Positions 11,143 through 15,622 of a DNA stretch of 57,175 bases are shown piece after piece. Numbering within the stretch: the stretch's first letter is position 1; each line of letters opens with the position of its first letter. The stretch spans positions 1-57,175 of the forward strand of contig JAMPAP010000001.1 in the NCBI GenBank assembly GCA_023667185.1. Reading direction: 5' to 3'. Under the pieces are notes generated by a model. It had not been told where the DNA came from. It saw only the letters and a list, made by a program, of their open reading frames with translations, and ran no database searches. This DNA comes from Lachnoclostridium sp. GTDB lineage: Bacteria > Bacteroidota > Bacteroidia > Bacteroidales > Muribaculaceae. The position numbers and the translations under genes were made by a program.

Positions 11143-12399
11143 TTATTTCTTGGAGCCACGGATAGCTGCGATACCGGGAAGTTCCTTGCCCTCGATAGCT
11201 TCGAGAAGTGCACCACCACCGGTAGATACGTAAGACACCTTGTCAGCAAGGCCAAACTTATTGATGCAAGCTACTGAGTCGCCACCACCGATGAGCGAGA
11301 ATGCGCCTTTGGCAGTTGCTTCTACGATAGCATCAGCGATAGCGCGTGAACCTGCAGTGAAGTTGTCAAATTCAAACACACCGGCAGGACCATTCCAGAG
11401 AATAGTCTTGGCGTCTTTGATAGCATTTGCGAAGGCTTCGCGACTCTTGGGGCCGGCATCCATACCTTCCCATCCTTCGGGGATTTCCATTACGGAAACC
11501 ACCTGAGTGTTGCAGTCGTTGCTGAAAGCGTCACCGGCTACACAGTCAGTGGGAAGCACGAGCTTAACGCCTTTGGCTTTAGCTTTTTCGATGATATCAA
11601 GAGCGAGGTCGAGCTTATCGTTCTCGCAGATTGAGTTACCGATATTTCCGCCGAGAGCTTTAGCGAAAGTGTAAGTCATACCACCACAGAGGATAAGGTT
11701 GTCAACCTTCTCCATGAGGTTTTCGATAATACCGATCTTGGTAGAAACTTTAGAGCCACCCATGATGGCAGTGAAGGGACGACGGATGTTGCTGAGGATG
11801 TTGTCAACGGCGTTAACTTCTTTTTCCATCAGGTAACCGAGCATCTTGTTGTCATCATCGAAATAGTCAGCTATAACGGCAGTAGAAGCATGACGACGGT
11901 GAGCAGTTCCGAAGGCATCGTTCACATAAACGTCGGCATACGAAGCGAGAGTCTTGGCAAACTCTTTCTGACGCTCTTTCATTTCTTTCTTTGCAGCATC
12001 GTAGCCGGGATCGGCTTTGTCAATACCTACGGGTTTACCCTCTTCTTCCGGGTAGAAACGGAGGTTTTCAAGAAGAAGCACCTGACCGGGCTTGAGATTC
12101 TTGGCCTGGTCAGCAGCCTTAGCACAATCGGGAGCAAATTCCACTTCAGTACCGAGAGCCTTGGCTACGGCATCTTTTATCTGACCGAGTGAGAGTTTGG
12201 GATTTACTTTTCCTTTGGGCTTGCCCATGTGGCTCATGATGATGAGCGAACCGCCATCGGCAAGAATCTTTTTCAGAGTAGGAAGCGCACCACGAATACG
12301 GGTATCGTCGGTGATATTACCATTTTCATCCAGGGGCACGTTGAAGTCCACGCGGACGATAGCCTTTTTACCGGCAAAATTGTACTGATCGATAGTCAT
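11143..12399 (-). CDS. pgk: Phosphoglycerate kinase
   Basis: A 418-aa cytoplasmic glycolytic enzyme transferring phosphate from 1,3-bisphosphoglycerate to ADP. The N-terminal signature [13 protein letters not shown] is near residue 15, with [20 protein letters not shown], the hinge region [22 protein letters not shown] and the C-terminal nucleotide motif [10 protein letters not shown] all present and in order. The length is normal for the family. It is a single-gene unit with its own promoter (12436-12466) and terminator. The predicted small RNA gene lies directly upstream on the same strand. Confidence 0.97.
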
Positions 12400-12435: not shown

Positions 12436-12466
12436 CAAAATTACTGAAAAATTTCTCTATTACAAA
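12436..12466 (-). promoter_or_regulatory. Bacteroidota-type promoter for pgk
   Basis: On the minus strand TTTG (12463-12466) and TAATTTTG (12436-12443) are separated by 19 bp, an exact consensus match. The start site would be near 12432, giving a leader of about 33 nt. This makes pgk independent of the transcript that ends at 12516. Confidence 0.75.
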
Positions 12467-12515
12467 AAGATTCCCACCACCCTTAAGACTTTTTAATGAA
12501 TATAACTTTGGAAAT

Positions 12516-12580
12516 AAAAAAAGGTTGTCTCCCGACAACCAATCTTTGTTAACCTTAAATCTAATACCATGAAAAACACA
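12516..12580 (-). ncRNA. Predicted small RNA of about 65 nt
   Basis: On the minus strand a complete small transcription unit is visible. A consensus promoter (12584-12615) is followed by about 40 nt of A/U-rich sequence containing ATTAGATTTAAGGTTAAC. It ends in a perfect 7-bp hairpin, GGTTGTC/GACAACC (12523-12540), and seven U residues. No ribosomal or tRNA fold is apparent. The only open frame through it is out of register with any known family. Because pgk has its own promoter just downstream, a free-standing RNA is more likely than a pgk leader, although read-through attenuation cannot be excluded. Confidence 0.65.
12523..12540 (-). terminator. Intrinsic terminator of the small RNA
   Basis: GGTTGTC at 12523-12529 and GACAACC at 12534-12540 form a perfect 7-bp stem with a 4-nt loop. 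It is followed on the minus strand by seven U residues (12522 down to 12516). This is the cleanest intrinsic terminator in the window. Confidence 0.85.
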
Positions 12581-12583
12581 ATG

Positions 12584-12615
12584 CAAATGTATAGCATATC
12601 TCAATTCCCACCAAA
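12584..12615 (-). promoter_or_regulatory. Promoter of the small RNA
   Basis: On the minus strand TTTG (12612-12615) and TACATTTG (12584-12591) are spaced by exactly 20 bp, a full match to the Bacteroidota primary sigma consensus. No coding region begins downstream before the terminator at 12540. The remaining bases from 12616 to 12732 are AT-rich with nothing recognised. Confidence 0.75.
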
Positions 12616-12732
12616 TATTTTGGACAAAATACTTAGAATTTTAACATTATTTTTATCATACTGTAAGTTTTCAGCGGTTTTACATTGATTTTTGCAGGAA
12701 AACGCCATTTTTTATGACATTTTGCAAGTAAG

Positions 12733-12770
12733 ACAGAGCAGCTCTACCTCTATCGGTAGAACTGCCCTGT
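12733..12770. terminator. Terminator after the triple esterase gene
   Basis: A 16-bp stem with two mismatches is formed by 12733-12748 and 12755-12770 around a 6-nt loop. It lies 45 bp beyond the stop codon of the minus-strand esterase. The minus strand continues with a weakly U-rich TCTTACTT; the plus strand has a stronger CACTTTTTAA, so it may work in both directions. Confidence 0.6.
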
Positions 12771-12814
12771 TAACACTTTTTAATAAATTATTTATCTTAT
12801 TACTATTCAACCTA

Positions 12815-15622
12815 TTACGACCCATAAGGACGGTCAAGTTGCACAAAAACAGCCCTCGGCCATACGAATTTGTCAGGGTCGTCAGGATTAGCCGGGTCAT
12901 AACCGGGAAAATCCTTGATATGAGGAGCAAGTTCCGGGGCGGCTTCAGGCAGGCCTTCGAGGATACATTTGGCGATCTGAGTGGCGCCGTATGGGTTGAA
13001 ATGGGTGTTATCCTCCAGGGCGGTAGTCTGTCCGGTGAAAGTTCCGGCGGGATAGTGCACAAATGCACGTTTTGATCCTTCGGTACCAAGGGCCTTATAC
13101 AGCTCTTTTGTCATGCCGTTGAGCTCGATCAGAGGCACACCTTCGCGTTCGGCAACAGCCCGCATTGCATCGAGATAGTCGCCATGGGTATCTTTAACCG
13201 TTCCGTCGTCGTTAAATTGGCGGCGGCACGCCGGGGTGACAAATATAGGATTCAGTCCGGCCTTACGGGCGCGGTCGATGAAAATCTTGAGGTCGTATGA
13301 GAAGTTGTACCATGCGCCTGACCCGGGGGTACGCTCCTTCTGGTCATTATGGCCAAACTCTATAACAACATAATCTCCCGGCCGAGCCATCTTCATCACC
13401 TTTTCGAAACGCTTCTTGTCAAGGAACGATGATGCACGCTCGCCGCTCTCGGCATGATTGGAAATTGCAATTTTGTCGTCGAAATATCGGGGAATAATCT
13501 GTCCCCACGAAGCCCATGGCTCGTAAGTCTGATCGACTACGGTAGAGTTTCCGCAGAGGAAGATGGTTGTGACGCTATCGCTTTCGGCTACCGGGCGGAT
13601 GGTGATCGATTCCACAGCGGGTGCATCGCCGGTAAATTCGAGCGTCAACTTATCGTCCCATGACAGTGTGCCCTGCTCACGAGGATTGATTTTGACATTC
13701 ATATCGGGAGTAATCTCCGGCGTGCGCTTGGCTACGACGAACGACTTCTCCACAAACTCCCCCTTGCGGGTAGTAACATCCTGAAGCATAAGGCGTCGGC
13801 TCTCGGCACGCACGGTGGTCGACGACGGGTGTTTCTTATCGCCGAGACGCACGGTGACCATATAGTTACCGTCCTCAGGCACACGGGCTGAGAAGTAGAA
13901 TGGTTTAGTCTGGCCTTTGACAGGCCGGGTATCGAAATCAAATCCATAGCCGGTAATTGGATCATAATCTCCTGTTTCGGCCATAATGAAATTGCTCTTG
14001 GCCGGGATGAGGTAATCAGCCAAAGTGGATCCTGAAGCGACAATGCCTTCAGCCACTCCGTCGGCATTAAGGCGGGCTCCTTCAAGAGAAGTATGGGTAT
14101 GGTCGCCACGAAAGTAAGGTGCGGTAGCCTCTTTACCGAGATAGTTAAGTTTCTCGCCGGTACGCTGATTGAGGTCTACGAGAGCTACTCCGCGTGATGC
14201 TGCGGCGCTACGAGCCCAAGAGGAGAATGTATTATCGAGAGATTCCACCTTGCTGCCTGACCATCTGTTGCGTGGCGATGGCGTGACTACCACAGGGATT
14301 GCGCCCTTTTCGAGAGCATCGTCGATGAATTTGCGAAGATACCATCCGTAAGTATATACCACCTCATAGCGGCCGTTACTTTCCATTTTATAGACCTTGC
14401 TTTCCGAGCCGGCGCCGGGGAGTTCACCGCGAGCCTTTCCGCGCTCGATGTCACCACCATCGTTATGGCCAAACTGCATCAGCACATAGTCGCCGGGGCG
14501 AAGTGCGCGATAAATCTTATCCCATCGTCCTTCGTTAAGGAATGTGCGGGCACTGCGGCCGGCTATGGCATGATTTTCGATGGTGATACGTGTGGTGTCA
14601 AACTTCTCATCGAGTACGCTGCCCCAGCCCCACTGACCATCCTCGTCAGTTTCCTGATTCTTCACAGTGCTGTCTCCTATCACAAACACTACAGGAGCAT
14701 CACCCTTGCGCGAAGCTCCGGTAATGGTATCCTCCACTGCAGGAAGCAAATAATTCTTCAGTTCCAGATTATCCGCAGCAATTATACCCTCCACTGCACT
14801 CTCGGCGTTAACTCTTGCGCCTAAAGTGGAAGTATGGATTTTGTCAAGATAAAACATTGTGGCGGTTTTATCCTTGCCAAACTTCTCGTATTTGGAGGCA
14901 GTGATATCATTGAGGTCGATAAAGGGGACACCCTTTTCGAGAGCAATTGTACGAGCCCATAATCCGTATGTGGTATCCACGCGGGTGATGTGGCGGAATT
15001 TCTTATCGTCGTAAGCAAGGCGTGGAGTAAGCGACATTAATATAGGGGTAGCGCCCCGACCTTTTACCTGATCGACGTAGCGGCGGAGATATTCGCCATA
15101 GGAATATACAGTCTCAGGATGACCGGTTTCTTTAATCACGACATTGAGGCTGTCATGTCCGATGCCGGGAATTGTAGCGCGTGCACGTCCGCTATCATAC
15201 GGGCCGTTATCATTATGGCCAAGTTCTATAATGACATAGTCACCCGGGCGGACACCCTTCAGTACATCAGGCCATAGGACATTATAGAATGTACGAGTGC
15301 TCATTCCGCCAAGTGCGTGATTCTCTACGGTGATTTTCTTCGGGTCAAAATACTCGTGCATAAAAAATCCCCAGCCCCACTGTCCATTGTTGCCGTTACC
15401 GAGAGTGCCGGTGCGCATGGTGGAGTTGCCTACAAGAAATAATACAGGATTATCACCTGTGCGGGTTGAGCCCGAAACCGGACGCGCTGTCAAAGCCACA
15501 GAAATACTGTCGGGCGTGTTGTCAACCACGCCATTGACATCCGCCATAGGAGCCGGGACAGCACCATATGCTGCAATCCCAAGAGCCATGGCTGACATGA
15601 GAAAAAGAATCGATTTATTCAT
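12815..15622 (-). CDS. Secreted triple-domain SGNH esterase (pectin acetylesterase type)
   Basis: A 935-aa exported protein (signal peptide about 1-20) with three tandem SGNH hydrolase domains of the rhamnogalacturonan acetylesterase type (CE12-like). The nucleophile motifs are GNST (Ser near 67), GDST (near 318) and GNST (near 693). Each is followed by a GHND block III (near 135, 385 and 757) and a DxxH dyad (DKIH near 260, DHTH near 507, DNTH near 871). All three therefore look catalytically complete. A beta-rich spacer of about 140 residues separates domains two and three. It should remove acetyl groups from pectic rhamnogalacturonan outside the inner membrane. It is a single-gene unit, with its promoter overlapping that of yqeY. 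The triple arrangement is unusual. Confidence 0.9.
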   Translation of the reverse strand: MNKSILFLMSAMALGIAAYGAVPAPMADVNGVVDNTPDSISVALTARPVSGSTRTGDNPVLFLVGNSTMRTGTLGNGNNGQWGWGFFMHEYFDPKKITVENHALGGMSTRTFYNVLWPDVLKGVRPGDYVIIELGHNDNGPYDSGRARATIPGIGHDSLNVVIKETGHPETVYSYGEYLRRYVDQVKGRGATPILMSLTPRLAYDDKKFRHITRVDTTYGLWARTIALEKGVPFIDLNDITASKYEKFGKDKTATMFYLDKIHTSTLGARVNAESAVEGIIAADNLELKNYLLPAVEDTITGASRKGDAPVVFVIGDSTVKNQETDEDGQWGWGSVLDEKFDTTRITIENHAIAGRSARTFLNEGRWDKIYRALRPGDYVLMQFGHNDGGDIERGKARGELPGAGSESKVYKMESNGRYEVVYTYGWYLRKFIDDALEKGAIPVVVTPSPRNRWSGSKVESLDNTFSSWARSAAASRGVALVDLNQRTGEKLNYLGKEATAPYFRGDHTHTSLEGARLNADGVAEGIVASGSTLADYLIPAKSNFIMAETGDYDPITGYGFDFDTRPVKGQTKPFYFSARVPEDGNYMVTVRLGDKKHPSSTTVRAESRRLMLQDVTTRKGEFVEKSFVVAKRTPEITPDMNVKINPREQGTLSWDDKLTLEFTGDAPAVESITIRPVAESDSVTTIFLCGNSTVVDQTYEPWASWGQIIPRYFDDKIAISNHAESGERASSFLDKKRFEKVMKMARPGDYVVIEFGHNDQKERTPGSGAWYNFSYDLKIFIDRARKAGLNPIFVTPACRRQFNDDGTVKDTHGDYLDAMRAVAEREGVPLIELNGMTKELYKALGTEGSKRAFVHYPAGTFTGQTTALEDNTHFNPYGATQIAKCILEGLPEAAPELAPHIKDFPGYDPANPDDPDKFVWPRAVFVQLDRPYGS

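Follow-up and report, generated by a model that had tools for sequence, protein, structure and literature searches.

What does the short minus-strand unit upstream of the phosphoglycerate kinase gene (pgk) encode, in which a promoter and a terminator follow each other with no gene between them? The window analyzed here is the whole stretch of 57,175 nucleotides. A prior sequence-only reading of it had proposed a separately transcribed RNA of about 65 nt on the minus strand, with a consensus promoter and a perfect hairpin plus seven U residues, and could assign this RNA to no known class. The layout, the length and the absence of an intervening gene were all confirmed from the sequence, and the class can now be given. 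The features of the locus are as follows.

12584..12615, minus strand: sRNA promoter of the Bacteroidota type, with the -33 element TTTG at 12615-12612, a 20-nt spacer and the -7 element TACATTTG at 12591-12584
12513..12579, minus strand: FopS sRNA, full length relative to RF04319, 5' end GUGUUUUUCAUGG at 12579 (start inferred from the model and the promoter)
12549..12579, minus strand: 5' region, conserved and single-stranded, which contains the R1' seed (seed role according to PMC11697453); its complement, TTAACCTTAAATCTAATACCATGAAAAACAC, resembles a start codon with its flanks
12516..12540, minus strand: intrinsic terminator, GGTTGTC-GGGA-GACAACC and then TTTTTTT
12436..12466, minus strand: separate promoter of pgk, TTTG-N19-TAATTTTG
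11143..12399, minus strand: pgk, phosphoglycerate kinase (PF00162, 503 bits), a neighbor outside the sRNA unit
12815..15622, minus strand: upstream gene with three GDSL/SGNH hydrolase stretches, a neighbor

Minus-strand positions 12579-12513 matched the Rfam family RF04319 (BTncRNA_FopS) across the whole model (positions 1-71 of 71) and scored 82.5 bits, the cut-off being 56. The E-value was 1.2e-10 in the scan of the 57-kb window, and this was the sole Rfam match above cut-off within it. The full-length match rules out chance as the origin of the promoter-terminator layout. The minus-strand unit upstream of pgk is a stand-alone FopS-type sRNA gene and belongs to a known family. The RNA is expected to start with GUGUUUUU, and its 5' seed region equals the family consensus at positions 1-31 save for one letter, with differences in the region of position 32. 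Fold prediction placed one weak hairpin near the 5' end and left the remaining seed unpaired. The ATTAGATTTAAGGTTAAC segment, through which pairing with mRNAs had been proposed, overlaps the conserved 5' stretch at its 3' part; the published R1' seed lies within that stretch (PMC11697453), and the proposal of a separately transcribed pairing RNA is, as far as sequence comparison goes, supported in the form of a FopS sRNA. The best joint explanation, which we hold with considerable confidence, is that this FopS sRNA has its own promoter and terminator and probably acts in trans at mRNA start codons, here without the protein RbpB.

The promoter pattern TTTG-N18..21-TANNTTTG occurred four times in the window, where 0.37 occurrences are expected, and none of 100 shuffles reached four. 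Two of these four occurrences are the sRNA promoter and the pgk promoter; the latter, which the sequence-only reading had also noted, lies at 12466-12436. The terminator stem is a perfect 7-bp helix (12540-12523) with seven T. A simple terminator scan returned 5 sites in 3.5 kb compared with 3.5 in shuffles, and the hairpin by itself is therefore not convincing. The fold z-score of the sRNA was -2.38, and 6 of 200 shuffles folded equally well. A further hairpin of ~16 bp, very stable and without a clean T run, is located on the minus strand at 12735-12768, between the GDSL-hydrolase gene and the sRNA promoter; for the stretch 12701-12815, the folding energy is -38 kcal/mol.

To gauge conservation of the unit, we analyzed copies that carry the seed. 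The exact 23-mer seed was present in at least 120 stretches of a species-genome collection, and the titles among the matches listed include Dysgonomonas, Prevotella, Paludibacter, Tannerella, Odoribacter, Parabacteroides, Barnesiella, Bacteroides and Duncaniella. One Muribaculaceae-like seed-bearing record has the title Pseudoflavonifractor. Since the copies were picked by the seed, they serve to gauge the rest of the unit, and conservation of the seed itself is not measurable from them. The -7 box TANNTTTG lies no more than 24 nt upstream of the seed in 154 of the 164 copies with enough flank, compared with 1.0% of random places, and the strict TTTG-spaced promoter in 45 of 164, compared with 0.3%. 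A terminator-like hairpin with a T-rich tail was detected in 149 of 165 copies, with 70 distinct stems.

For the covariation analysis of this stem, 55 of the 135 distinct sequences were aligned. Pairing was observed in 87.5% of the stem cells (73.7% in shuffles), changes on both sides in 43 cells (10.5 in shuffles), and the covariation score was 0.474 (0.231 in shuffles); none of 500 shuffles reached any of these three values. When the stem was slid along the alignment, at most 73.3% of the cells were paired, with a covariation of 0.228. The number of stem pairs with a both-sided change (5 of 7) was not above the shuffles (311 of 500). Misalignment of the Prevotella-type rows within the stem reduces the covariation counts. 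FopS was matched in 69 of 295 Bacteroidales genomes, 58 of them above cut-off, and these order-wide counts are lower bounds because the strict search filters drop weak matches. All 39 genomes searched from the same family were matched. Conservation beyond the strain, the absence of which would have counted against the sequence-only reading, is thus widespread.

FopS-like RNAs are also borne by four IMG/VR viral contigs (L126:262-341, L130:2244-2323, L131:1373-1448 and L132:2346-2421), with the exact 23-nt seed and a different hairpin; they score 53-55 bits, just below the Rfam cut-off of 56. One Caudovirales phage with a FopS sequence is mentioned in PMC11697453. The exact seed was furthermore present in viral contigs L125 (position 1767), L127, L128, L129 and L133, which have neither a FopS terminator nor an Rfam match; on L125 there are genes for an SPP1-type portal, a ParA-like ATPase and a D5-type primase-like protein. 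The seed in these five contigs could be a phage mimic or part of a different RNA.

The organism's own genome, 2.29 Mb in 43 contigs and 92.95% complete, contains four FopS copies above cut-off, on contigs C11 (the window), C5, C33 and C22. Those at C5:226-293 and C22:223846-223913 belong to a second type, which starts with CAGUUUUU, has an AUUAUUCGUC stem and shows GUAAG following the seed; one other copy has CAUAG and an altered middle. The 26 congeners harbored between 3 and 14 FopS matches, with a median of 6. Closely spaced copies were observed at G007:C1:929618-930144, G002:C8:775588-776083, L021 (60 and 340) and L023:3338-5135, about 210-280 bp apart at three of these places, suggesting local duplication. 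Copy number and place vary within the genus, as would be seen if the window carried a decaying, silent copy. We consider this improbable, as the window copy is the top-scoring FopS of its genome and has a strict promoter, the exact seed and a perfect stem.

The position next to pgk raises the alternative that the FopS copy acts as a cis element of this gene, either as leader, as attenuator or through promoter-proximal interference. It lies on the strand of pgk, ~115 nt upstream of the start codon, but the pgk promoter sits downstream of the sRNA terminator. The pgk gene was found in 23 of the 27 genomes of the genus, own genome included, and the upstream region in the 22 other genomes comprised 450 bp in 19 and 228 bp in one, with two lacking a usable upstream region. 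The FopS seed (at most 4 mismatches in 20) was found upstream of pgk in 0 of the 19 congeners with 450 bp and in 0 of the one with 228 bp, and among the 165 loci listed pgk occurs near a FopS seed at the window locus only. The absence of FopS upstream of pgk in these 20 readable congeners indicates that the pgk-adjacent place is particular to this lineage and that the RNA does not form the leader of pgk. Conservation solely as part of the pgk leader had been considered beforehand, and the opposite was found, with conservation of the RNA but not of its pgk neighborhood. A cis role is, in our judgment, marginally less probable still than decay, and pgk looks like a chance neighbor of FopS. A comparison of pgk with phage records gave no match and is uninformative. 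Regulation of pgk by FopS was rejected because the examined congeners lack FopS ahead of this gene.

Two related sRNAs share features with the 5' end, and we therefore considered whether the RNA could be of the GibS or BTnc231 type instead of FopS. GibS (RF04182; PMC7366714) has the RNA start and the R1 seed in common with the window sRNA, and the 5' end of BTnc231 (RF04180) is partly similar. The Rfam scores were 39.6 bits for GibS (cut-off 115) and 28.2 bits for BTnc231 (cut-off 80.4), both far below their thresholds, whereas FopS is far above its own. GibS moreover has a length of ~145 nt, a second seed and a different promoter type (PMC7366714), compared with the ~65 nt predicted here, and an assignment to either family is very improbable. 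Least probable of all is a small peptide encoded from the conserved AUG at 12570, which lies inside the seed in a reading frame open through the hairpin, as this frame has no stop in the transcript and extends to 12493, the AUG-to-stem distance is spread over all three frames (94, 33 and 22 of 149 copies), a stop within 60 nt is present in 51 of 165 copies and none so near in the other 114, and small open reading frames are reported as excluded for the B. thetaiotaomicron FopS copies (PMC11697453).

We return to the reading of a trans-acting FopS sRNA. In B. thetaiotaomicron, nucleotides 1-21 of FopS pair at the start codon of susC-type mRNAs and block their translation, as established by in-line probing, by EMSA with compensatory mutations and by in vitro translation, and the FopS members studied block production of sugar-uptake proteins (PMC11697453). 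In the window sRNA, the complement of the seed resembles a start region, ATCTAATACC ATG AAAAAC. By analogy with B. thetaiotaomicron, the RNA of ~65 nt would act in trans, with the unstructured 5' end (GUGUUUUUCAUGGUAUUAGAU) pairing across the start codon of mRNAs that begin like ...ATCTAATACC AUG AAAAA..., many of the candidate targets would encode exported or SusC-type outer-membrane proteins, and pairing would keep the ribosome off the target mRNA. In this organism, and in nearly all searched family members, such repression would probably proceed without the RRM-1 protein RbpB.

Targets were predicted in ~20% of the own genome, comprising the window and 20 stretches chosen to cover all six SusC genes, with a crude gene call of 306 genes; the own genome has only 6 SusC genes above the family cut-off. 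Two set-ups were tried, and their p values are uncorrected; the narrow one uses the published nt 1-21. In this narrow test (nt 1-21 against -30..+18), 43 genes reached -12 kcal/mol, compared with 15.3 for shuffled seeds (0 of 100 shuffles reached 43), and gene middles were nearly as good (30 vs 43). The SusC genes ranked 5, 12, 38, 40, 122 and 184 of 306 (p 0.006). The wide test (nt 1-37 against -60..+60) gave no separation at -18, with 36 starts, 31 gene middles and 30.2 for shuffled seeds; here the SusC ranks were 28, 39, 61, 115, 141 and 167 (p 0.043). Start-region energies were slightly more favorable for genes given a crude signal-peptide score (p 0.02), an effect not seen in gene middles (p 0.97), and such genes make up 34 of the 41 that start with ATGAAAA.

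No near-perfect target was detected in the own genome, where the best non-FopS match to the 19-mer complement has 3 mismatches (one place; the reversed control also gave one). Ungapped comparison of the 29-mer with the six SusC start regions gave no convincing site, the best match being 21 of 29 and off the start. Outside FopS, the complementary motif was found at 2, 4 and 13 places with at most 2, 3 and 4 mismatches in the 165 loci listed (~1.03 Mb); the reversed motif gave 0, 0 and 4. The places of the complementary motif include at least one diverged FopS copy of the locus itself (L003), few of them lie at long open frames, and the comparison is not informative. Target prediction lends modest support in the narrow set-up, and weak support in the wide one, to translation-start targets among exported proteins, which falls short of a demonstration.

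In B. thetaiotaomicron, the RRM-1 protein RbpB binds and opposes FopS (PMC11697453); this association is a studied property of FopS and stands outside the Rfam definition. PF00076 (RRM_1) had no match in the own genome (92.95% complete), and RRM_1 was absent in 26 of 26 congeners, in 9 of 10 other genomes of the same family and in two further ones from the order sample. Single absences may reflect assembly gaps; the 0 of 27 in the genus does not. As a control, the RRM_1 model matched 198 of the 295 order genomes and the Bacteroides control. Among the same-family genomes searched, own included, FopS was thus present in 39 of 39 (E <= 0.001) and RRM_1 in 1 of 39 (G030), which also means that this family (f1) is not entirely without RRM_1. 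Searches of the own genome for Hfq, ProQ and cold-shock domains gave no match either, the cold-shock model being negative in the Bacteroides control genome too. The contrast of 39 with 1 suggests that FopS probably functions without RbpB in this organism, as judged from gene content. The apparent lack, in this organism, of the protein that is known to oppose FopS is the one fresh point beside the known family.

Across the order, 42 of the 69 FopS genomes in the sample of 295 had RRM_1 and 27 did not; at FopS E-values below 1e-6 (59 genomes), these numbers were 34 and 25. As RRM_1 is a general domain, its presence is no proof of RbpB. The 25 strong-FopS genomes without RRM_1 span ten families (f1, f22, f41, f57, f58, f65, f83, f102, f103 and f105), six of which are mixed for RRM_1 (f41, f57, f58, f83, f102 and f103), with none in f1, f22, f65 and f105 among the genomes drawn. 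We give an even chance to the broader reading that FopS is an order-wide Bacteroidales regulator not dependent on RbpB, where Muribaculaceae and, independently, other families lost or never had the RRM-1 partner and kept the multicopy sRNA and its seed; the sRNA would then act bare or with another RNA-binding protein. If this is true, RbpB would be a brake that is optional or was added later to an older sRNA system, the published FopS-versus-RbpB model would cover only part of the family range, and RRM-less Muribaculaceae would offer a natural test of the sRNA's own action.

In the literature collection searched we found nothing on FopS in Muribaculaceae, and its wider distribution may already be printed in the supplementary figures of PMC11697453, which contain a species table; searches on RRM/sRNA distribution in Muribaculaceae or Bacteroidetes and on Duncaniella small RNA returned no title on the subject. 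The gene itself is an ordinary FopS gene, and the missing RRM-1 partner is mildly interesting. A formerly unclassified promoter-terminator unit, from a group that is dominant in the mouse gut, is now tied to a characterized sRNA family. The mechanism is carried over from the work on B. thetaiotaomicron, and transcription, targets and RbpB independence in this organism are inferred.

Compared with FopS of B. thetaiotaomicron, the window sRNA has the same 5' seed, terminator and Bacteroidota promoter, and in both organisms there are multiple paralogs per genome, mostly as stand-alone units. The number of copies differs, with 4 above cut-off in this genome and 14 in B. thetaiotaomicron (PMC11697453), as do the host family, Muribaculaceae, and the host genome, in which no RRM_1 protein was found. 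The window copy adjoins pgk, a place that the congeners examined do not share.
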